Shown: positions 9,235 through 32,557 of the stretch, in pieces
Layout: every line of letters starts with the position of its first letter
How positions within the stretch are numbered: position 1 is the first letter of the stretch
Source: Megasphaera vaginalis (ex Bordigoni et al. 2020)
Lineage (GTDB): Bacteria > Bacillota > Negativicutes > Veillonellales > Megasphaeraceae
Assembly: GCF_900240295.1 (NCBI RefSeq)
Contig: NZ_OEQB01000005.1
Span: forward strand, 62,001-126,000
Direction of reading: 5' to 3'
Length of the DNA stretch: 64,000 nucleotides
The notes under the pieces: generated by a model
Databases searched by the model: none
Told to the model about the DNA's origin: nothing
The model's input: only the letters and a program-made list of their open reading frames with translations
Translations under genes and position numbers: made by a program

Positions 9235-9268
9235 ACGGCTTGCCGTTCGAACGGCAGGCCGTTTTTTT
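9235..9268 (+). terminator. intrinsic terminator after the Gx transporter gene
   Basis: A GC-rich stem (ACGGC-TTGCCGT paired with ACGGCAGGCCGT around a TCGA loop) is followed directly by seven T residues, 13 bases past the stop codon. Confidence 0.8.
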
Positions 9269-9322
9269 CGCGCCTGAAACGGCGAAAAGGAAAACAGCCG
9301 CTCCCCGCCGGCGAACGGGGCG

Positions 9323-10300
9323 TCAACGAAAAGGCAGTATTCCCATGGCAACGAGGATATAAAACAGGGGATATAAAACAAAAACATAAACGACGGTCGT
9401 CGTAATGAACGGCGCCATCGCCAAATTGACATTAAGACCGTAAAGCCGCGCCGTAATCAGCGAATTAATCGCGCACGGCGCCGCCATCATAATAATCAGC
9501 GTTCCCAACAGGACGGCATCGGAAAAAAACAAGGTCCCGACCAGATACAGCACCAAGGGCGTAATAATCATCTTGACCGGAATAATATCCAACGTCTGCC
9601 TGCAATAGGTCTGCAAATGAGTAAACTCGATCATATAGCCGATAGGCACGAGAGCCGCCCAAGCGCTGAAATGAATGAGGAACTGGAAAAAGTCCCCCAG
9701 AATCTGCGGCCGCGGTACGTCGAAAGAATAAAGAATCATGCCGACAATAATGCCGGCGACGGATAACTGATTCCAGTTAAGGAAGAGAGCCCGCCAATTC
9801 ATCGCTCCCAAGTTGACGGCGCCGCCATGCTCACTGCTGTACTTATAATAATAGGCCATCGGAAAGAGCACGAAAAGCATGACTAAATTTTGAAAAACGC
9901 CGACAATCTGAACATAGGCAAACGACAGTTCCCCATACAGGATAAATCCGCACAGACCGGCAAGAGAACCGATATTGGCCGGCATGGAAACGATGAGGTA
10001 ACTGCCCTGATCGGTTAACGACGAAAATTTTTTATGCCGCCCCGACAATTTCACCAGCCCCCACGGCAACAACACGTTCAAAAAGGAAAAAACCGGCAAC
10101 ATCGCCAGTTCCGCGCGCAGCGGCAGAATCCAGAAACTGAGGAGCGTGAGAATCGTCATGACGACGATAATATTGAAGCGGATCAGCACGTTGCATTGCC
10201 GGGACGACAGCCAATCTTTCTTTTTGCAGATATACCCGACAACCAGCGGTAAAATGATATCGATAAAGATAAACGAGATCTTAATCCCTATTCCTTCCAC
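9323..10300 (-). CDS. AEC-family transporter (auxin efflux carrier-like)
   Basis: The 325-residue protein has about ten membrane helices in two halves. The first begins IILPLVVGYICKKKDWLS, and the second holds LNWNQLSVAGIIVGMILYSFDVPRPQILGDFFQFL and a late MMAAPCAINSLITARLYGLN, the typical AEC crossover motif. AEC carriers move organic acids such as malate, malonate or lactate. The GTG at 10300 is chosen because AGAGGA lies six bases upstream; a longer frame to 10510 runs back through the exonuclease gene and its hairpin. The substrate is not determined. Confidence 0.85.
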   Translation of the reverse strand: MEGIGIKISFIFIDIILPLVVGYICKKKDWLSSRQCNVLIRFNIIVVMTILTLLSFWILPLRAELAMLPVFSFLNVLLPWGLVKLSGRHKKFSSLTDQGSYLIVSMPANIGSLAGLCGFILYGELSFAYVQIVGVFQNLVMLFVLFPMAYYYKYSSEHGGAVNLGAMNWRALFLNWNQLSVAGIIVGMILYSFDVPRPQILGDFFQFLIHFSAWAALVPIGYMIEFTHLQTYCRQTLDIIPVKMIITPLVLYLVGTLFFSDAVLLGTLIIMMAAPCAINSLITARLYGLNVNLAMAPFITTTVVYVFVLYPLFYILVAMGILPFR

Positions 10301-10327
10301 GACGGTTCCTCTTTTCCGAAAATAAAC

Positions 10328-10352
10328 GCACCTGCAGTCAAGCTGCAGGTGC
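10328..10352 (-). terminator. hairpin after the exonuclease gene
   Basis: Perfect 10-base arms GCACCTGCAG and CTGCAGGTGC with a five-base loop lie just past the exonuclease stop codon. The following minus-strand bases are only moderately T-rich, so termination strength is uncertain. Confidence 0.55.
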
Positions 10353-10356
10353 TCTG

Positions 10357-11025
10357 CTATCTGTGTTTTGCCGCCCTGAACGCATCGGCCAGGGAAACCG
10401 TAAGCGGTTCGGTCGGCTTCGTCGCGGCGATGATCGGTTCCATGATCTTGTGAAAGTCTTCTTTCTCTTTGGCCAGCACATAGAGCTTCGACGTATTGCG
10501 GGCATCCCAAAGCGCATCGTGCATCTGCCCGTCAAAAACGGCTCCCAAGGCGCTGACGGCTTTATCGAGAGAAATCGCTCGGTCAAGGCCGAGCAGATTA
10601 CAGTAGATCTGCTGAAAATTCTGCCAGTGATCAAGCATCCAGCGCACGTCCGGCAGCGACGTATCCACGTGCTTCAGGCGCATTTCCGCGTCCAGCTGCC
10701 GCCAGTCATTTTCACTCCAGGCATACATTTCATATCCATTGCTGCCGCCTTCGTTACACCAGGCGAGAAAACGGGCAAAGGCCTCGTCGAAATGCGGCGC
10801 CGTCGCAAGCATTTCCATCGTGATGCCGGTCAGTTCCCGGCAAGTCTCATTCATGACCGTCGCATATTCAGGCAAAACGTATTCCTTATATGACGAAATT
10901 TCCCTGCCGTCTTCAGCCAATTTTACGGCGCCGATTTCAATGATCTCTCCCTTGCAAAGACGTCGCGCCTCTTTCTCTTCCCTTCCGATCGGATTCATTT
11001 CAAAATCGACAAAAACAGCTTTCAT
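10357..11025 (-). CDS. DEDDh 3'-5' exonuclease
   Basis: The 222-residue protein has the DnaQ-like fold motifs: Exo I with D7 and E9 in VDFEMN, a conserved IIEIGAVKL strand, Exo II with D107 in SENDWRQLD, and Exo III H169/D174 in HDALWDARNT. It acts on nucleic-acid 3' ends with two metal ions. It resembles the KapD/Eri-1-like single-domain group rather than a polymerase proofreading subunit. The first 55 residues (acidic and basic loop after DFEMN) are slightly longer than usual. AAAGGAG precedes the start. It is transcribed away from the TPR lipoprotein gene. The cellular substrate is unknown. Confidence 0.88.
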   Translation of the reverse strand: MKAVFVDFEMNPIGREEKEARRLCKGEIIEIGAVKLAEDGREISSYKEYVLPEYATVMNETCRELTGITMEMLATAPHFDEAFARFLAWCNEGGSNGYEMYAWSENDWRQLDAEMRLKHVDTSLPDVRWMLDHWQNFQQIYCNLLGLDRAISLDKAVSALGAVFDGQMHDALWDARNTSKLYVLAKEKEDFHKIMEPIIAATKPTEPLTVSLADAFRAAKHR

Positions 11026-18076: not shown

Positions 18077-20437
18077 ATGACCAAGTATGGAAACACACAC
18101 AGAACCCTTTCCCTGCGCATTCTCTGCGTGCTGTTGTTAGGCACCTGCCTGTTGGGAGGACACGGCACGGTAAGCGCCATTGTTGACACCATGACTCCCA
18201 CTAATACTAATAAAAATATCAGCGTAAATACCAACAGCGGGTCGGTCGAACTCACCCTCAGCGGCTTAGCTACGGAGCCCTGGCAGACGGCCCTGGGAGA
18301 CGGCGCAGAGGCTACCGGGGGCCACGCTACCGCTATCGGAGCGGATGCAAAGGCCACAGCGCAGGGAAACACAGCCTTGGGAGACAATGCAAAGGCGGAG
18401 GGCACGAGCGCGGATGGCATGAGCGCTACGGCCATTGGCGCCGGCGCTTATGCAACCCGCGGAGGATCTTCTTTAGGGAATTACGCGTACGCCCGGGGAG
18501 ACAACAGTGTAGCTTTCGGATCTGGGGCAAAAACAGGGACAGAAAGCAGTCCCGCATCAGGAACGGAGGCCATCGCCATCGGCTACACGGCAAAGGCGCA
18601 GAAGAAATGGGCAATTGCCATCGGGAGCGGCGCAAACGCTGATGGAGAGAGCGCAACGGTTTTGGGATACAAGGCGAAAGCTAGTGGGAAGAATGCACTG
18701 GCGCTCGGATACAATGCGACAGCGAGTCTGGAGAACAGTGTGGCCATCGGCTACAATTCCTCGGTAGGCGCGGCGAATACCGTTTCCTTTGGCAGCTCTG
18801 GTGCGACCCGGCGCCTGATGTATGTGTCTGCCGGCGAATCTGATACGGATGCGGCTAATTTTGGACAGTTAATAAGATCCGCCGGTTTAAGCGGCAGCAA
18901 ATTACAATTTTACACGCAGGCGGCAAACAAAGCTTTTGAGGTAGATCTATCTTCACTGTCAGGCGCCGGCGGAGCAGTCATTGGTGGCGGCAGCGTCGCC
19001 TATACTGCGACCGGAAACGGCACCCTGAAGCTGAAGAACGGCGTCGGAAGCACCATCGCGTCCATTGCGGGCTTTACGGATAAATACACTACAGGCGTTG
19101 AACTGGTGGGAAACACGGTCACCTTCACCCGTAATGACGGCGGCACCTACAGCTTCGAGCTGCCTGCTTCCGCAGGCAGCGGCGGTATGGCTTCTCTGAA
19201 GTTTGCCGGGGACGACGGGCCGGTAATTACGAAAACGGATGGGCAGAAGATGGACATCCTCGGCGGTGCTGCACCGGCCGCCTTGTCAGAGAACAATATC
19301 GGAGTGGCGTCGGAAGACGGCGCCTTGAAAGTCAAGCTCGCCAAGGACATTCAGGGCATTTCCAGCCTCACCACCGAGAGCGGCGTGAAAATTGATGCCG
19401 CCGGACTCCATGCAGGGAATAAGAAAGTTACGGGAGTCGCAGACGGAACCGCCGATAGCGATGCCGTAAACTTTAAGCAGTTGAAAAATCTGGATAAGAA
19501 AATGACTGGCAATACTAACGCCATCGCCGCCAATAAAGCCGATATTGCCGCCAATAAAGCAGCCATCAACAGCATTAAAACGCAAGACGGCGTAGTTGCT
19601 CCCGCGGGAACGGCGAAAGCAACGGAATTTGTGAAAGGAACCACTGTCTATGATTATCTCCACGGCAATACCATTTCCCTGGGCAAAGACAGCGCGGCGA
19701 CAGGCATGAATTCCATCGCCATCGGCTTCGGCAATCAAGTAACCGGCAAGGGAAGCGGCGCCTTCGGCGATCCCACTACGATCACCGGCAATGGCAGCTA
19801 TTCGGTAGGAAACGGTAACACGATCAGCGGTGACAATACTTTCGTACTGGGTAGTAATGTGAATACCTCCGCCAAGAACGCCGTCGTTCTCGGGAATAAT
19901 TCCGAAGGCGCGGACAACGCCGTATCTGTCGGCGCGAAAGGAAGCGAACGGCAAATCAAGAACGTGGCGGACGGCACTGCCGACTCGGATGCCGTAACCG
20001 TACGCCAGTTAAATAAAGCCGCAGGGTTTGACGTGAATACCATCGACGCCGATTTGAAAGCCGCCAATAACCACATCAGCAGCCTGGACAACCGACTCAG
20101 CAAAGTAGGCGCAGGAGCCGCCGCGCTGGCAGCTCTCCATCCGATGGATCTGACAGACGACAAGTGGAGCGTGGCAGCCGGCCTGGGCCACTACAAGAAT
20201 GCGAATGCGGCAGCCGTAGGCCTGTTCTACCGTCCCAGTGAAGCCGTCCTCCTGAGCGTGGGAGGAGCCTTCGGCGGCGGAGAAAACATGCTGAACGCCG
20301 GCGTCAGCGTAGCCGTAGGAAGCGGCACGGTGAAAGGCACAAGCGGAACGATGGCCAAACGGGTGGCCGATTTGGAAGCGGACAACGAAAATCTGCGGCG
20401 AGAGTTGGAAGAAATCAAAGCGATGCTGAAGAAATAA
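18077..20437 (+). CDS. YadA-like trimeric autotransporter adhesin
   Basis: The 786-residue protein begins with an export signal (hydrophobic core at residues about 13-27, probable cleavage after VSA34). YadA-type head repeats at about 70-250 follow in short units such as ATAIGADAKA, SVAFGSGAK and ALALGYNATA, then a neck. The stalk region is beta-rich and coiled, a second set of head repeats lies near 540-620, and a final neck (ADGTADSDAVTVRQLNKA) precedes a membrane anchor at about 695-757. It would form a homotrimeric outer-membrane adhesin. Unusually, the anchor does not end the protein: 28 residues with perfect V/L/N/L/L/I/L heptads follow. The gene lies between two 28-bp direct repeats. 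Confidence 0.92.
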   Translation: MTKYGNTHRTLSLRILCVLLLGTCLLGGHGTVSAIVDTMTPTNTNKNISVNTNSGSVELTLSGLATEPWQTALGDGAEATGGHATAIGADAKATAQGNTALGDNAKAEGTSADGMSATAIGAGAYATRGGSSLGNYAYARGDNSVAFGSGAKTGTESSPASGTEAIAIGYTAKAQKKWAIAIGSGANADGESATVLGYKAKASGKNALALGYNATASLENSVAIGYNSSVGAANTVSFGSSGATRRLMYVSAGESDTDAANFGQLIRSAGLSGSKLQFYTQAANKAFEVDLSSLSGAGGAVIGGGSVAYTATGNGTLKLKNGVGSTIASIAGFTDKYTTGVELVGNTVTFTRNDGGTYSFELPASAGSGGMASLKFAGDDGPVITKTDGQKMDILGGAAPAALSENNIGVASEDGALKVKLAKDIQGISSLTTESGVKIDAAGLHAGNKKVTGVADGTADSDAVNFKQLKNLDKKMTGNTNAIAANKADIAANKAAINSIKTQDGVVAPAGTAKATEFVKGTTVYDYLHGNTISLGKDSAATGMNSIAIGFGNQVTGKGSGAFGDPTTITGNGSYSVGNGNTISGDNTFVLGSNVNTSAKNAVVLGNNSEGADNAVSVGAKGSERQIKNVADGTADSDAVTVRQLNKAAGFDVNTIDADLKAANNHISSLDNRLSKVGAGAAALAALHPMDLTDDKWSVAAGLGHYKNANAAAVGLFYRPSEAVLLSVGGAFGGGENMLNAGVSVAVGSGTVKGTSGTMAKRVADLEADNENLRRELEEIKAMLKK

Positions 20438-25260: not shown

Positions 25261-26814
25261 ATGAAGAAAGTGAAAATCATCACATCTTATGAGGCGGCCC
25301 GGCTGGTACAGGATAACGACACCTTCACCTCAATCGGCTTTGTCGGCAGCGCCCATCCGGAAGCACTGACTAAAGCGTTGGAACGGCGCTTCTTGGAAAC
25401 GGGACAACCGCGAAACATCACGTATATGTATGCCGGATCGCAAGGCAACCGAGACGGGCGCGGCGCAGAACATTTAGCCCACGAAGGGCTCATCAAACGG
25501 GCCATCATCGGCCATTGGGATACCATTCCCCAGATGGCCAAGCTGGCTGTCGAAAACAAGATTGAGGCCTATAATTTCTCGCAGGGAACGCTGTGTCATT
25601 GGTTTCGCGCCTTAGCCGGCGGCAAACTCGGCGTATTCACGGATATCGGTCTGGAAACGTATCTGGATCCGCGTCAGGACGGCGGCAAGCTCAACAGCCG
25701 CACGACAGAGGACTTGGTGCAATTACTGCAGATCAACGGTCAGGACCAGCTGTTTTATCCCTGTTTTCCGGTCAACATCGCATTCCTCCGCGGTACGTAC
25801 GCCGATGAGCACGGTAATATTACGATGGAAGAGGAAATCGTTCCCTTGGAAAACACATCCGTTGCCCAAGCCGTCAAAAACAGCGGCGGCATCGTCGTCG
25901 TTCAAGTCAAGCGGGTCGTCTCCGGCGGCGATCTCGATCCCCGCCTGGTGAAAATTCCCGGCATTTACGTGGACGCTGTCGTTGTTGCCGAAGAAAAGGA
26001 CCATCAACAAAGCTTTGACTGCGCTTACGACCCCACCTTGTCCGGCCAATGCCGAAATCCGTTCATCGCCGCCAACGCTATGATGCCCTTGAATGCAAAA
26101 AAAATAATCGGCAGAAGAGCGGCGCTCGAGCTGACAAACGGCGCCGTAGCTAATCTGGGTGTGGGCGCTCCCGAATACGTCGCCCTCGTTGCGGCGGAAG
26201 AAGGGATCGCCGACTCCATTACGCTGACCGTAGAAGGAGGCGCTATCGGCGGCGTACCGCAAGGCGGCGCCCGCTTCGGCGCTTCCATGAATCCGGAGGC
26301 CCTCATCGATCATCCGTATCAGTTCGACTTTTATGACGGCGGCGGCCTGACGATGGCCTTTCTCGGCTTGGCGCAGTGCGATCGGACAGGCAGCATTAAC
26401 GTCAGCAAATTCGGTACGCATATCGCCGGCTGCGGCGGTTTTCCCAATATCGCCCAAAAGACGAAGCAAGTATATTTCTGCGGCACCTTTACGGCCGGCG
26501 GCTTAAAAATTGCGATAAAAGACGGGGCCTTGCAGATTCTCCAAGAAGGAAAAATGAAGAAATTCGTCAAGAACGTCGACCAGATCACCTTCAGCGGCCC
26601 TTACGCCGCACGTCAGCAAAGGCGAGTATTTTATATTACGGAGCGCTGTGTGTTCGAACTGACCGCCGCCGGGCTCCATCTGCTTGAAGTAGCGCCCGGC
26701 ATTGACGTGAAACGCGATATTTTGGATCAAATGGAATTCACCCCCATCATCGATACATACAAAACGATGAATATAAAGATATTTGCAGAAGCCCTCATGG
26801 GACTAAAAAAATAA
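25261..26814 (+). CDS. pct: propionate (lactate) CoA-transferase
   Basis: The 517-residue enzyme transfers CoA from propionyl-CoA or acetyl-CoA to lactate, giving lactoyl-CoA for the acrylate pathway. It belongs to CoA-transferase family I with both halves fused. The catalytic glutamate is E325 in LTVEGGAIGGVPQGG, and the GVGAPEYVA loop precedes it. It matches the M. elsdenii Pct in length and through most of the sequence (for example FSQGTLCHWFRALAGGKLGVFTDIGLET). It heads a six-gene operon with the lactoyl-CoA dehydratase genes. Confidence 0.95.
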   Translation: MKKVKIITSYEAARLVQDNDTFTSIGFVGSAHPEALTKALERRFLETGQPRNITYMYAGSQGNRDGRGAEHLAHEGLIKRAIIGHWDTIPQMAKLAVENKIEAYNFSQGTLCHWFRALAGGKLGVFTDIGLETYLDPRQDGGKLNSRTTEDLVQLLQINGQDQLFYPCFPVNIAFLRGTYADEHGNITMEEEIVPLENTSVAQAVKNSGGIVVVQVKRVVSGGDLDPRLVKIPGIYVDAVVVAEEKDHQQSFDCAYDPTLSGQCRNPFIAANAMMPLNAKKIIGRRAALELTNGAVANLGVGAPEYVALVAAEEGIADSITLTVEGGAIGGVPQGGARFGASMNPEALIDHPYQFDFYDGGGLTMAFLGLAQCDRTGSINVSKFGTHIAGCGGFPNIAQKTKQVYFCGTFTAGGLKIAIKDGALQILQEGKMKKFVKNVDQITFSGPYAARQQRRVFYITERCVFELTAAGLHLLEVAPGIDVKRDILDQMEFTPIIDTYKTMNIKIFAEALMGLKK

Positions 26815-26826
26815 GGAGATTCCACC

Positions 26827-27606
26827 ATGTACACACTTGGCATTGATATCGGTTCTTCCTCTTCAAAGGCCGTCTTGCTCAAAGACGGCAAGACGATCAT
26901 CAGTGAAAAAGTAGTTGAAACCGGTACCGGTTCTGCCGGCCCGGAAAAGGTGCTGAAAGCGCTATTCGCCGAATCGAATCTGACCTTGGACGATATGAAC
27001 GGCGTCATTGCTACCGGCTACGGCCGCTTCAACGTCGCAGAAGCCGACGGCGAAGTCAGCGAAATCACCTGTCATGCCAAAGGCGCCTTGTTTGAAAGTC
27101 CGAAAACCACGACGATCCTGGATATCGGCGGCCAGGATGTAAAGGCGATCAAACTGAACGGGCAAGGACTGGTCATGCAATTTGCCATGAATGACAAATG
27201 CGCCGCCGGTACGGGCCGCTTTCTGGACGTCATGTCGCGAGTTCTCGAAATCCCCATGGCCGACATGGGCGCCTGGTACTTCAAATCTAAAACACCGGCA
27301 AGGGTCAGCAGCACCTGTACCGTTTTTGCCGAATCAGAAGTCATTTCCCTGCTGTCCAAAAATATCCCGAAAGAAGATATCGTCGCCGGCGTCCATTTTT
27401 CCATTGCCAGTAAGGCCTGTGCCCTTGTCCGTCGCGTCGGCGTCGGTACCGAACTGACCATGACCGGCGGCGGCGCCCGCGATGCCGGACTCGTCGACGC
27501 TATCGCCAAAGAACTGGGCATACCCGTAAGCGTCGCCCCTCATCCGCAAGTTGTCGGCGCTCTCGGCGCCGCCCTGATGGCCTATGAAAAGCAAGTCCGC
27601 GGCTAA
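26827..27606 (+). CDS. lcdC: lactoyl-CoA dehydratase activator (archerase, BadF/HgdC family ATPase)
   Basis: The 259-residue ATPase injects a high-energy electron into the dehydratase with ATP hydrolysis. The ASKHA fold is shown by the phosphate loops GIDIGSSSSKAVLL and LDIGGQDVKAIKL and by MTGGGARDAGL. A 4Fe-4S cluster is shared between two subunits through C125 (NDKCAAGTGRF) and C164 (SSTCTVFAES), near-identical in position to C127 and C166 of Acidaminococcus HgdC. It lies 12 bases after pct. The enzyme is expected to be highly oxygen-sensitive. Confidence 0.93.
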   Translation: MYTLGIDIGSSSSKAVLLKDGKTIISEKVVETGTGSAGPEKVLKALFAESNLTLDDMNGVIATGYGRFNVAEADGEVSEITCHAKGALFESPKTTTILDIGGQDVKAIKLNGQGLVMQFAMNDKCAAGTGRFLDVMSRVLEIPMADMGAWYFKSKTPARVSSTCTVFAESEVISLLSKNIPKEDIVAGVHFSIASKACALVRRVGVGTELTMTGGGARDAGLVDAIAKELGIPVSVAPHPQVVGALGAALMAYEKQVRG

Positions 27607-27646
27607 CACGGCTTTACAGTTTACTTACGAAAGGAAGTCAATCACT

Positions 27647-28096
27647 ATGAAAAAACCGTTACGCATGCATCACGTCGGAATCGTTCTTCCGACACTGCAA
27701 GATGCGAAAGAATTTATCAATCGCATGGGACTGGAAATCGATTATTCCGGTTACGTCCAAGCCTACCATGCCGATCTCATTTTCACGACAAAGGGAGAAA
27801 ACAGCAGTCCCATTGAATTCATCATTCCTCACGAAGGCGTTCTCTGTGAATTCAACCACGGTAAAGGCGGCATTGCCCATCTGGCCTTTGAAGTGGAAGA
27901 CGTCGAAGAAACGCGGCGCGAATACGAAGCGCAAGGCTATAAAATGTTGGAAAAAGCCGCAGTCCAAGGGACGGACGATATTATCGTCAATTTTATGCGC
28001 CCCAGCTACAACAACGGAATTCTCGTAGAATTCGTCCAGACCGTTGCCCCCATCAATCGTGAAACGGCAAACCCGTTCCAATCATTGCATCATTAA
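27647..28096 (+). CDS. VOC-fold protein, methylmalonyl-CoA epimerase-like (possible 2-hydroxyacyl-CoA epimerase)
   Basis: The 149-residue protein has two beta-alpha-beta-beta-beta units of the vicinal oxygen chelate fold. Metal ligands expected for methylmalonyl-CoA epimerase can be matched: H9 in MHHVGIVLP, E57 in SSPIEFIIP, H78 in KGGIAHLAFEVED and E128 in GILVEFVQ. Length and spacing fit that family. It sits between the dehydratase activator and the dehydratase alpha gene, in the same operon (40-base and 13-base gaps). Methylmalonyl-CoA is not an intermediate of the acrylate route, so it may epimerise lactoyl-CoA or an analogous thioester; this is inference. The ATG at 27647 has GAAAGGAAG upstream; a longer frame from 27584 overlaps the activator. 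Confidence 0.8.
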   Translation: MKKPLRMHHVGIVLPTLQDAKEFINRMGLEIDYSGYVQAYHADLIFTTKGENSSPIEFIIPHEGVLCEFNHGKGGIAHLAFEVEDVEETRREYEAQGYKMLEKAAVQGTDDIIVNFMRPSYNNGILVEFVQTVAPINRETANPFQSLHH

Positions 28097-28109
28097 AGGA
28101 GAGATTGTC

Positions 28110-29393
28110 ATGAGTGAAGATACCGCTGTAAATTTGGAAACCATGAGCGCCAAAGACGCCCTCGGCTACTTTCTGCCTAAGTTGGATGAAGACGCGCGCA
28201 ACGCGAAGAAAGAAGGGCGTCTCGTTTGCTGGTCCGCCTCCGTTGCCCCGCCAGAATTCTGCGTAGCCATGGATATCGCCATGGTTTATCCCGAAACGCA
28301 CGCCGCCGGCATCGGCGCCCGTCACGGCGCCCCTGATATGCTGGAAGTCGCCGAAAACAAAGGCTACAATCAGGATATCTGTTCCTATTGCCGCGTTAAT
28401 ATGGGCTATATGGAATTGCTGAAACAGCAGGCCATGACCGGCAAAACGCCGGAAAAACTGAAGAACTCCCCGGCTTCCGCCGTGCCCTTGCCGGACCTCA
28501 TCATTACATGCAACAACATTTGCAACACCTTGTTGAAGTGGTATGAAAATCTGGCCAAAGAACTGCATATCCCCCTGATCACCATCGATGTCCCTTTCAA
28601 CCATGAATACCCTGTCACACAGCACGCCAAAGACTACATCGTCGGGGAATTCAAACATGCTATCACCCAATTGGAAGCGATCTGCGGCCGTCCTTTTGAC
28701 TACGACAAATTCTTTGAAGTACAAAAGCAGACGCAGCGATCCATCGCCGCCTGGAATAAAATCGCGTCTTTCTTGCAATACAAACCGTCTCCGTTAAACG
28801 GTTTTGACCTCTTCAACTTCATGGGACTCGCCGTCGCCGCCCGTTCTCTCGACTATGCGGAAATTACGTTCACAAAATTAGTCAAGGAACTGGAAGAAAA
28901 AGTCGCCCAACAGAAATGGGCTTTCGGCGATAACGAAAAAAGCCGTATAACCTGGGAAGGCATCGCTGTCTGGATCGCCTTGGGACATACGTTCAAAGAG
29001 TTAAAGGGCAAGGGATCGCTGATGACCGGTTCCGCCTATCCCGGCATGTGGGATGTTTCTTACGAACCGGGCAATCTCGAATCGATGGCCGAAGCCTATA
29101 CGCGCACCTATATCAATTGTTGTCTCGAACGGCGCGGCGAAGTGCTGGAACAAGTCGTCTGTGACGGTAAATGCGACGGACTCATCATGCATCAGAACCG
29201 GAGCTGCAAAAACATGAGCCTCCTGAACAACGAAGGCGGTCAACGCGTGCAGAAAAATCTCGGCGTTCCCTATGTCATTTTTGACGGTGACCAGACCGAT
29301 CCGCGCAATTTCAACGAAGCGCAGTTTGATACGCGCGTCGAAGCCTTAGCCGAAATGATGGCCGATCAAAAAGCACAAGGAGGAAATCACTAA
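28110..29393 (+). CDS. lcdA: lactoyl-CoA dehydratase, alpha subunit
   Basis: The 427-residue subunit belongs to the 2-hydroxyacyl-CoA dehydratase (HgdA/FldB) family, which removes water from (R)-lactoyl-CoA to acryloyl-CoA by a ketyl radical route. Cluster-ligating cysteines appear in QDICSYCRVNMGYM, ITCNNICNTLLKWY and HQNRSCKNMS. The first domain starts GRLVCWSASVAPPEFCVAMDIAMVYPETHAA. The start at 28110 has AAAGGAGAG. Its stop overlaps the beta subunit start in TAATG, so the subunits are translationally coupled. Confidence 0.93.
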   Translation: MSEDTAVNLETMSAKDALGYFLPKLDEDARNAKKEGRLVCWSASVAPPEFCVAMDIAMVYPETHAAGIGARHGAPDMLEVAENKGYNQDICSYCRVNMGYMELLKQQAMTGKTPEKLKNSPASAVPLPDLIITCNNICNTLLKWYENLAKELHIPLITIDVPFNHEYPVTQHAKDYIVGEFKHAITQLEAICGRPFDYDKFFEVQKQTQRSIAAWNKIASFLQYKPSPLNGFDLFNFMGLAVAARSLDYAEITFTKLVKELEEKVAQQKWAFGDNEKSRITWEGIAVWIALGHTFKELKGKGSLMTGSAYPGMWDVSYEPGNLESMAEAYTRTYINCCLERRGEVLEQVVCDGKCDGLIMHQNRSCKNMSLLNNEGGQRVQKNLGVPYVIFDGDQTDPRNFNEAQFDTRVEALAEMMADQKAQGGNH

Positions 29394-30514
29394 TGAGCCA
29401 CATTGATGAACTTATCAGCAAATTGGAAACTATATCAAACCACCCGCAAGCTGCCGTCTTGTCCTATAAGCGGAATACCGGCAAAGGGCTCGTCGGCGTC
29501 ATGCCCTACTATGCCCCCGAAGAAATCGTCTATGCCGCCGGCTATCTCCCTGTCGGCATGTTCGGCGCGCAAAAGCCGGCAATCGCCGCCGCGCGAACCT
29601 ATCTGCCGCCCTTTGCCTGTTCGCTGATGCAGGCCGATATGGAATTACAACTCAACGGCACCTATGACTGCCTCGACGCCGTTCTCTTCTCCGTGCCTTG
29701 CGACACGCTCCGCTGCATGAGTCAAAAATGGCACGGCAAAGCGCCGGTCATCGTCTTTACACAGCCCCAGAACCGTAAGATCCGCGCCGCCGTCGACTTT
29801 TTGAAAGCCGAATACGCCCATGTCCGCCGCGAACTGGAACGGATTCTGCAAGTCAAGATCAGCGACTTGGCCTTGCAAAAGGCCATTCATATTTATAACG
29901 AAAACCGCCGCACAATGCGTGAATTCTGCGACGTTGCCGCGCAGTACCCGCAAATTTTCACACCGGCCAAACGCCATGCCGTTATCAAAGCCCGCTGGTT
30001 TATGGATAAAGCCGAACATACAGCGCTCCTGCGCCAACTCATCGATGCCGTAAAAAAAGAACCGGTACAGCCCTGGAAAGGAAAAAAGGTTATTCTTTCC
30101 GGCATCATGGCCGAACCGAATGAATTTCTCGATATCTTCAGCGAATTCAACATCGCCGTCGTCGCCGACGATCTGGCACAGGAATCCCGGCAATATCGCA
30201 ACGACGTTCCTGCCGGCATTGATCCGCTGGAACAGCTGGCACAATGGTGGCAAGATTTCGACGGCTGCCCGCTGGCGATGAATACCGACAAGCCGCGCGG
30301 CCAGATGATCATCGACATGGCCAAAAAATGCGACGCAGACGCCGTCGTCATCTGCATGATGCGTTTTTGTGATCCCGAAGAATTCGACTACCCCATTTAC
30401 AAAACCGAATTTGAAGAAGCGGGCCTTCGTTATACGGTAATCGACGTCGACCTCGAATCTCCGTCACTGGAACAGGTCCGTACCCGCCTTCAAGCCTTCT
30501 CGGAAATACTTTGA
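29393..30514 (+). CDS. lcdB: lactoyl-CoA dehydratase, beta subunit
   Basis: The 373-residue partner of the alpha subunit has the HgdB-type order: GVMPYYAPEEIVYAAGYLPVGMFG at the N-terminus, LPPFACSLMQADMEL and FSVPCDTLRCMSQKWHG with the first cluster cysteines, a middle domain LSGIMAEPNEFLDIF, and CMMRFCDPEEFDYP near the end. The subunits carry one 4Fe-4S cluster each in this family. AGGAGG lies before the ATG within the alpha coding end. Confidence 0.93.
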   Translation: MSHIDELISKLETISNHPQAAVLSYKRNTGKGLVGVMPYYAPEEIVYAAGYLPVGMFGAQKPAIAAARTYLPPFACSLMQADMELQLNGTYDCLDAVLFSVPCDTLRCMSQKWHGKAPVIVFTQPQNRKIRAAVDFLKAEYAHVRRELERILQVKISDLALQKAIHIYNENRRTMREFCDVAAQYPQIFTPAKRHAVIKARWFMDKAEHTALLRQLIDAVKKEPVQPWKGKKVILSGIMAEPNEFLDIFSEFNIAVVADDLAQESRQYRNDVPAGIDPLEQLAQWWQDFDGCPLAMNTDKPRGQMIIDMAKKCDADAVVICMMRFCDPEEFDYPIYKTEFEEAGLRYTVIDVDLESPSLEQVRTRLQAFSEIL

Positions 30515-30582
30515 CCGATGCGGCGTAAACCGGACATACCGGTGTATCTAAATTGACGCACATACGTAAGGAGGACTGTATT

Positions 30583-31722
30583 ATGGATTTTGCTGTAAGA
30601 GAACTGGATCAGGATATCGTAAAATTAGCCGCCGACTTTGCGGAAAAGCGCCTGGCGCCGACAGTCAAAGAACGGGACGAAAAAGAGGTTTTCGACCGCA
30701 AGCTGATCGACGAAATGGGCGAACTCGGCCTGCTCGGCATTCCTTATGAAGAGGAATACGGCGGCGTCGGCGCAGACTTTCTCAGCATGGCGATGGCATG
30801 CGAAGAAATTTCCAAGACAGACCCGTCTATCGGCCTGAGTTTCGAAGTGCACACAACGCTTTGCTCCTGGCCGATTTGGAAATTCGGGACGGAAGAACAG
30901 AAACAGAAATTTTTAAAACCCTTGGCAAGCGGTGAAAAACTGGGCGCCTTCGGCCTGACCGAACCGAATGCCGGTACCGATGCGCTGAACGGCTCTACGA
31001 CAGCCGTCAAAGACGGTGATTCTTATATTTTGAACGGTTCCAAGGTTTTCAATACGAATGGCGGCGAAGCGGAAATCACCGTTGTCTTCGCGGCTACGGA
31101 CAAGACCAAAGGCGCCAAAGGCATGAGCGCTTTTATCGTGGAAAAAGGAACGCCCGGCTTCACGTACGGCAAAAAAGAAGTGAAAATGGGAATTCACGGC
31201 TCCGTCCAACGCGAGTTAATCTTCCAAGATGTCAAAATTCCGGCAGCCCATCTCCTCGGCAAAGAAGGGGAAGGATTCAAAATCGCCATGATGACCCTTG
31301 ACGGCGGCCGCGTCGGCGTCGGCGCACAGGCGCTCGGCATTGCCGAAGGCGCCTTTCACCACGCGCTCACCTATGCCACCGAACGGGTGCAGTTCGGCAA
31401 ACCGATTGCGAAATTTCAAGCAGTCAGCTTTCTCCTGGCCGATATGAAAGCTAAGATTGAAGCCGCCCGTTATCTCGTTTACAAAGCGGCCTACAGTATG
31501 AATCAGGGAGGCTCGTACAGCATGGATGCCGCTATCGCCAAAAAGGTGGCCTCCGACGTGGCCATGCAGGTAACAACCGACGCCGTACAGATTTTCGGCG
31601 GCTACGGATTCACTCGGGAATATCCGGTTGAACGCTACATGCGCGACGCCAAGATCACGCAGATTTACGAAGGCACGACGCAAGTACAGCAAATGGTTAT
31701 CTCCGGCGCACTGCTTCGATAA
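30583..31722 (+). CDS. short-chain acyl-CoA dehydrogenase, probable acryloyl-CoA reductase
   Basis: The 379-residue flavoprotein has the acyl-CoA dehydrogenase layout: an alpha-helical N-domain, the middle-domain flavin contacts FGLTEPNAGTDALNGSTTA, the QALGIAEGAFHHALTYATERVQFGKPI segment and IFGGYGFTREYPVERYMRDAKITQIYEGTTQ with the catalytic base at about E363. As the last gene of the acrylate operon it should reduce acryloyl-CoA to propionyl-CoA, using electron-transfer flavoprotein whose genes are not in the window. A butyryl-CoA dehydrogenase role is also possible. The ATG at 30583 has AAGGAGG, and a strong terminator follows. Confidence 0.9.
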   Translation: MDFAVRELDQDIVKLAADFAEKRLAPTVKERDEKEVFDRKLIDEMGELGLLGIPYEEEYGGVGADFLSMAMACEEISKTDPSIGLSFEVHTTLCSWPIWKFGTEEQKQKFLKPLASGEKLGAFGLTEPNAGTDALNGSTTAVKDGDSYILNGSKVFNTNGGEAEITVVFAATDKTKGAKGMSAFIVEKGTPGFTYGKKEVKMGIHGSVQRELIFQDVKIPAAHLLGKEGEGFKIAMMTLDGGRVGVGAQALGIAEGAFHHALTYATERVQFGKPIAKFQAVSFLLADMKAKIEAARYLVYKAAYSMNQGGSYSMDAAIAKKVASDVAMQVTTDAVQIFGGYGFTREYPVERYMRDAKITQIYEGTTQVQQMVISGALLR

Positions 31723-31732
31723 GCGCGTCGGC

Positions 31733-31781
31733 AACAAAAGACCTATGGACACGACAGAACCCGTGCCATAGGTCTTTTGTT
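31733..31781 (+). terminator. terminator of the acrylate operon
   Basis: Perfect arms AACAAAAGACCTATGG and CCATAGGTCTTTTGTT with a CACG/CGTG extension enclose a short loop. The A/T-rich base of the stem supplies the U-tract. It lies 11 bases past the acyl-CoA dehydrogenase stop. Confidence 0.85.
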
Positions 31782-31960
31782 ACCGGCAACTATTTCTATT
31801 TTTCTTTACCTTTCGAGCAACACGGGCCACGTAAACTTGCCGCGTCAGACGCCGCTCCGACAGCATCGCGCCCCTGAAGTTGAACGAAACGGCCACAGCC
31901 TGCACGGCAGTAAAACGGATGCGCACCTGCTGCCGCCATTTTCGAAAAACCGATTTTCCG

Positions 31961-32557
31961 CTACTCGATCAGGCTGATATCGTATGCCCCTAAAGACGCT
32001 TTCAAAACGTCATCGGCCACCTCATGATTCCGGTCCATATACACTTCAACGAAATGCTTATCACGCCGTACCGCCACGTCGGAAACACCGGAAACGGCCA
32101 TGACGGCAGTACGCAAATCAGCAACAGCCGCATTCGACATGTAATCAAAAAACTGCAGCTTCATGACCTTGTAATCGAGGCGCTCTATCTTGAAAATAAC
32201 AGGCCGTGTCCCGTCAGAACAACAGGCGATCATGACATGTTCGTCCTTCATCCAGCCGCGCATGACAGCGCCGCCCTGCAGGCCCGTATAAATGTACCGT
32301 GAAATGGCATCCCATGCCTCCGAACAATGCGGTTTTACCGGACCGCCGGCAACGGTATTCTCGTCGGCAATACTCTGTTGTAACGAACGAATCCCCATAC
32401 GCCAGAAATCATCCTGCGTCCCGTACCGCTCAAAGAGGAACACATCGCCCACATTATAACAAGGACAGACGCCGGCATCAGGATCGGCGCAATAGGCCTC
32501 CTGCAAATTAGGGTATAACTTCTTGTCAATGACCGTAACCTTTACCTTGTACTGCAT
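31961..32557 (-). CDS. TIGR04076-like protein with C-terminal heavy-metal-associated-like region
   Basis: The 198-residue protein starts YKVKVTVIDKKLYPNLQEAY and continues with CPCYNVGDVFLFERYG and CSEAWDAISRYIYTGLQGG, the pattern of the small TIGR04076 family. From about residue 125 a second domain (RPVIFKIERLDYKVMKLQFFDYM...VSGVSDVAVRRDKHFVEVYMD) has the beta-alpha-beta rhythm of a heavy-metal-associated or ACT-like fold but no CxxC. Cysteines at CADPDAGVCPC and IACCSDG may bind metal. The ATG at 32557 has AAGGGGGCGG upstream. Function is unknown. Confidence 0.7.
   Translation of the reverse strand: MQYKVKVTVIDKKLYPNLQEAYCADPDAGVCPCYNVGDVFLFERYGTQDDFWRMGIRSLQQSIADENTVAGGPVKPHCSEAWDAISRYIYTGLQGGAVMRGWMKDEHVMIACCSDGTRPVIFKIERLDYKVMKLQFFDYMSNAAVADLRTAVMAVSGVSDVAVRRDKHFVEVYMDRNHEVADDVLKASLGAYDISLIE

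Follow-up and report, generated by a model that had tools for sequence, protein, structure and literature searches.

The closest described system is the lap gene cluster of Coprococcus catus GD/7, in which lapB, a homologue of methylmalonyl-CoA epimerase (MCE), was proposed to encode a lactoyl-CoA epimerase (accessible text of Sheridan et al., 2022; PMC8914356). According to the same portions of that study, lapB was induced by approximately 12 log2 units on lactate and was among the most lactate-induced genes of C. catus, lapB homologues were noted in Megasphaera elsdenii, and Anaerotignum propionicum, which is without lapB, cannot use L-lactate. The proposal has been repeated in a review (PMC11406415), and a literature search that included alternative enzyme names found no enzyme assay of a lactoyl-CoA epimerase. 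The initial annotation of the locus studied here, from Megasphaera vaginalis, which suggested this function for the VOC gene and knew of no described lactoyl-CoA epimerase, was thus right in direction and out of date as to novelty, since its hypothesis is already published. Compared with the accessible text of Sheridan et al. (2022), what is new here is the racemase-gap argument, which was not met in that text, the wider linkage, the resemblance of the ligand set to that of glyoxalase and, in sister species, a form of the protein with two fused domains. A lactoyl-CoA epimerase would meet the same need as the lactate racemase LarA, the interconversion of lactate isomers, but LarA is of an unrelated family, acts on free lactate and works with a nickel-pincer cofactor and transient oxidation.

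Operon organization and forms of the VOC gene

The window, as the whole stretch of 64,000 nucleotides analysed is called here, contains the VOC gene as the third of six same-strand genes at 25261-31722, in the order pct, activase, VOC, LcdA, LcdB and acyl-CoA dehydrogenase (Table 1). The location between the dehydratase activator and the dehydratase alpha subunit, as initially annotated, was confirmed, and translation of the VOC reading frame gave zero internal stops. Pct of the window was 65-78% identical to the same-place gene of sister species, and LcdA was 82-88% identical to the VOC-gene neighbour in intact sister-species copies. The best NCBIfam models of both dehydratase subunits were 2-hydroxyisocaproyl-CoA ones, under cut-off, and the acyl-CoA dehydrogenase scored 481 bits against the acryloyl-CoA reductase model, under its cut-off of 640. 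The inverted repeat that follows the sixth gene was missed by a pattern scan with a loop limit of 8 bases and, as read from the sequence, is probably the operon terminator. Upstream of the operon, at 18077-20437 of the window, a large protein with a YadA-type repeat and anchor-like features was judged by eye to resemble a trimeric autotransporter adhesin.

Table 1. Features of the operon that carries the VOC gene (positions in the window)
Feature	Position	Strand	Basis
CoA-transferase, propionate CoA-transferase type (Pct), 517 aa	25261..26814	+	Pfam CoA_trans 107 bits
2-hydroxyacyl-CoA dehydratase activase (LcdC/HgdC type), 259 aa	26827..27606	+	TIGR00241 CoA_E_activ 257 bits, cut-off 125 passed
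Shine-Dalgarno-like GAAAGGAAG ahead of the VOC gene	27629..27637	+	read from sequence
VOC-fold protein, 149 aa, putative lactoyl-CoA epimerase (LapB type)	27647..28096	+	Pfam Glyoxalase_4 70.9 bits, cut-off 27
2-hydroxyacyl-CoA (lactoyl-CoA) dehydratase subunit alpha (LcdA), HGD-D	28110..29393, ATG start 28110	+	Pfam HGD-D 228 bits
2-hydroxyacyl-CoA (lactoyl-CoA) dehydratase subunit beta (LcdB), HGD-D	29393..30514	+	Pfam HGD-D 299 bits
acyl-CoA dehydrogenase, acryloyl-CoA reductase candidate (AcrC-like)	30583..31722, ATG start 30583	+	best model NF042972
inverted repeat, 16-base arms, end TTTTGTT	31733..31781	+	read from sequence

In the accessible description of C. catus (PMC8914356), the lap genes are ordered pct, epimerase, three dehydratase components and lactate permease. 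Locus L040 has its genes in this order, and its VOC protein shares 71% identity with that of the window; it is through this locus and the published description that the window protein is assigned to the LapB type. Both systems have an MCE homologue within a pct/lactoyl-CoA dehydratase cluster, and the proposed reaction is identical. They differ in that the VOC gene of the window is placed after the activase, not before it, and in that the window operon is without a lactate permease; the one lactate permease homologue of the genome lies outside the operon (contig C1).

A further difference was found within the genus. In nine of the ten LapB-bearing genomes, two VOC units are fused in one open reading frame of approximately 300 amino acids, located between pct and activase, whereas the window species has a single unit after the activase, which falls outside the duplicated clade in the tree (100/99). 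The fused genes of sister Megasphaera have a short linker (L042:6531-7440, L160:8302-9213 and L159:7712-8626), and each half is 66-71% identical to the window protein; the neighbours (pct, activase, LcdA, LcdB and acyl-CoA dehydrogenase) are the same. Since MCE-type VOC enzymes are dimers, the fused pair may be a single-chain dimer, the halves of which could have diverged in role. In Clostridium sp. ZS2-4 (L056:8001-8878, the same locus as L154), two separate tandem VOC copies lie upstream of pct, apparently through an independent duplication, and a small leader-like peptide and an ABC-type exporter are found beyond them. The pct and lcdA matches of Anaeroglobus geminatus F0357 are fragmented (L051:5939-7488 and 9265-10544), which suggests frameshifts or assembly errors.

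Fold and active site of the VOC protein

The AlphaFold2 model of the VOC protein (pLDDT 91) had Bacillus halodurans BH1468 (3oa4) as its top match among solved structures, with a Z score of 17.9. Other matches were the MCEs of Mycobacterium tuberculosis (Z 17.6) and Streptomyces coelicolor (17.2-17.6), and weaker ones were Clostridium glyoxalases (15.2-15.5) and human MCEE (13.9-14.7). In the alignment, H9, E57 and H78 were invariant across 52 relatives, and E128 was conserved in all rows that cover it within the groups counted. The statement that all four metal-ligand positions of MCE are kept therefore stands for the positions themselves (H9, E57, H78 and E128) but not for the exact residues of every MCE, given that Gln60 of the S. 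coelicolor enzyme aligns to Glu57 in the profile alignment to solved MCEs. In the same alignment, Glu43 of S. coelicolor MCE, which is the mutated residue in the deposited complexes 6xbs and 6xbr, aligns to Leu44, and human MCEE shares with the window protein the hydrophobic/Glu pair at the Leu44 and Glu57 positions.

The catalytic glutamates of P. shermanii MCE are Glu48 and Glu141. The catalytic pair of MCE is likewise given as Glu/Glu in a review (PMC8142540). With Leu44 in place of the E43/E48 base of actinobacterial MCE, the P. shermanii pair is not kept as such in the window protein, and its second base differs accordingly from that of the actinobacterial enzymes. Asp43 was considered as a substitute for the E43/E48 base and was dropped, because E43 aligns to Leu44 and position 43 is variable (D, E, N or Y). 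In bacterial glyoxalase I, glutamate ligands act as acid/base and the reaction proceeds via the enediolate of a lactoyl thioester. By analogy with that enzyme, Glu57 and Glu128, both of them ligands, are likely the acid/base pair of the window protein.

Genomic linkage and the lactate racemase gap

Conserved linkage, which the initial annotation had set as a test of its proposal, was found. Within the order, family searches detected the VOC gene in all ten genomes with an LcdA orthologue and in none of the 51 without one (Fisher p ~1e-11, uncorrected for relatedness, as the genomes counted are related and do not represent independent events). A locus scan with one genome per species yielded 79 loci. 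In the final table, 38 loci had VOC proteins that matched at 60% identity or more; among these, L154 repeats L056, and L075 and L094 belong by context to a neighbouring group. In the fetched flanks of these 38 loci, Pct was present in 34, LcdA in 27 and a lactate permease (LctP) in 15, and the dehydratase and/or the permease was found in 32. Homologues at 60-71% identity occurred in the same locus type in Bacillota, Fusobacteriota and one Desulfovibrio MAG, so that a chance occurrence of the VOC gene is remote. Anaerotignum sp. MB30-C6 and Tyzzerella An114 have pct, VOC and lactate permease in this order, and in A. lactatifermentans the VOC gene is followed by a lactate permease, in each case with no dehydratase nearby; such loci link the VOC protein to both lactate and CoA transfer irrespective of the dehydratase. 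As counter-examples, the genomes G063 and G404 have LcdA at 68-69% identity and no VOC gene by family searches; a true LarA is present in G063 (549 bits, cut-off 460), and only a sub-threshold homologue in G404 (301 bits).

More distant relatives, at 52-57% identity, lie mostly beside a distant CoA-transferase with no dehydratase, which indicates that the wider family is not lactate-specific. A sister group (L075-L089, e.g. L075:7998-8393 and L082; 52-62% identity to the window protein), mostly from Lachnospiraceae, has a distant CoA-transferase together with genes that appear by eye to encode a thiolase and a 3-hydroxyacyl-CoA dehydrogenase, but lacks a dehydratase; the acyl-CoA that it epimerises may be a different one. 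Alphaproteobacterial relatives (34-40% identity) sit in acyl-carrier-protein loci on plasmids and were set aside as uninformative on lactate. A protein of approximately 500 amino acids with an N-terminus like DISYISKWCN was observed beside lap-type loci of different genera (L063:10559-12043, L064:4337-5827, L068:5968-7491 and L154:3908-5410); the one member tested had no Pfam match, and the protein is possibly a shared regulator of lactate use.

Family searches also revealed that the sole LarA-superfamily racemase of the window genome (contig C6) scores 614 bits as LarAH10 (cut-off 540) and 280 bits as lactate racemase LarA (cut-off 460), while a second, weak Lar_N match is an iron-sulfur protein by its family matches. 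The LarAH10-type gene shares 76% identity with its counterpart in the sister genome G014, and the LarAH10 enzyme of M. elsdenii had no activity on lactate (PMC11770544); the gene (C6:37114) was therefore rejected as a free-lactate racemase. It lies beside a GlcD-type FAD dehydrogenase, a GntR-like regulator and a GntP-type permease (L158:7091-9984), and this is a 2-hydroxyacid or gluconate locus, not a lactate racemase locus. Two other genomes with both the VOC gene and LcdA (G017 and G417) gave no LarA match at all, and thus a canonical lactate racemase was not found by these searches in at least three LapB-bearing genomes. In the sister genomes G014 and G015 a true LarA coexists with LapB, indicating that LapB is not always the sole route and may be redundant there. 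According to Hino and Kuroda (1993), as cited in the accessible text of PMC12342382, M. elsdenii has free lactate racemase activity.

Alternative assignments and the proposed reaction

MCE is the closest functional family model for the VOC protein (about 50 bits), and the shared fold (Z about 17.5) and ligand positions would fit an ordinary enzyme of this kind located by chance in the operon. Its 50.4 bits against the MCE equivalog TIGR03081 miss the cut-off of 114.95, however, and methylmalonyl-CoA mutase (TIGR00641) was matched neither in the genome, which is 99% complete, nor in any of the 14 others of the genus; across the order it occurs in 41 of 61 genomes. Next to the mutase stands the order's MCE-like gene (28% identical), as seen in Veillonella-type genomes, where the related VOC gene, 27-29% identical, directly adjoins it (one case is G033:C8:33742, where the mutase occupies 30687-32243). 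In addition, phylogenetic analysis separated lactate-linked from MCE-like proteins with 100/100 support and placed the window protein in a 42-row clade with proteins of lap-type clusters (95/92). Compared with MCE (TIGR03081; PDB 6wf6, 1jc4 and 3rmu), the window protein has the same fold and metal-ligand positions and, putatively, the same acyl-CoA substrate class and alpha-proton chemistry, but it differs in identity (approximately 20-25%), in falling under the family cut-off, in having no mutase partner in its genome, and in residues, with Leu44 at the E43/E48 position, NFxRP instead of xFxHP, and Thr109 where MCE has Ser or Ala. By its genome context the protein is not a methylmalonyl-CoA epimerase, and we regard a chance placement of such an enzyme as extremely unlikely. 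Detoxification in the manner of glyoxalase I, or a VOC protein that serves the dehydratase structurally or as a regulator, would agree with the VOC fold, with a His-Glu-His-Glu ligand set like that of bacterial glyoxalase I and with the Clostridium glyoxalases among the structural matches (3hdp, Z 15.5). The strict linkage to pct, dehydratase or lactate permease makes these roles very unlikely, the score against the glyoxalase I (GloA) model NF050074 is far under its cut-off (21.6 versus 165 bits), and the loci with no dehydratase nearby argue against a helper of the dehydratase only.

A different question is whether the enzyme is a broader 2-hydroxyacyl-CoA epimerase, with its main substrate being, for example, 2-hydroxybutyryl-CoA or another alpha-hydroxy thioester from the same CoA-transferase. 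The 52-57% relatives that occur with CoA-transferases and without lactoyl-CoA dehydratase point in this direction, as do the 2-hydroxyisocaproyl-CoA models that, under cut-off, best match the dehydratase subunits. We nevertheless hold it to be unlikely, considering that the close family (at least 60% identity) repeatedly adjoins LctP-type lactate permeases (15 of 38 loci) and considering the strong induction of C. catus lapB by lactate in the accessible text of Sheridan et al. (2022).

The initial proposal of a lactoyl-CoA epimerase rather than an MCE is favoured by the conserved linkage, the missing mutase and canonical lactate racemase in the family searches, the adjacency to lactate permeases in related loci and a fold like that of MCE in which the metal-ligand positions are intact. 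We consider it quite likely that the VOC gene encodes a metal-dependent enzyme with this putative function. Pct would convert D- or L-lactate into its CoA thioester, (R)- or (S)-lactoyl-CoA. The VOC enzyme would bind this alpha-hydroxy thioester at a divalent metal that H9, E57, H78 and E128 coordinate. The acidified alpha-proton would then be removed to give an enediolate, which would take up a proton on its opposite face; E57 and E128 are the likely acid/base residues. In this way the enzyme would turn (S)- into (R)-lactoyl-CoA, the isomer that lactoyl-CoA dehydratase prefers; LcdAB, activated by LcdC, would convert this to acryloyl-CoA, and the acyl-CoA dehydrogenase would yield propionyl-CoA.

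For the family as a whole, we lean towards the view that LapB proteins are widespread (Bacillota, Fusobacteriota and scattered others) and interconvert L- and D-lactate at the level of the CoA thioester by a metal-dependent, glyoxalase-like enediolate mechanism, in which the bases E57 and E128 replace E43/E48 of actinobacterial MCE. LapB would be the sole lactate-isomer switch where a canonical racemase is missing, as here, and would take the form of a fused pseudo-dimer in part of Megasphaera. The use of both lactate isomers by acrylate-pathway bacteria bears on lactate disposal in the rumen and gut, and the same question bears on the engineering of propionate or acrylate production. If the proposed function is true, lactate racemisation would be possible on the CoA ester without a nickel-pincer cofactor, and the presence of LapB would predict L-lactate use where LarA is missing.
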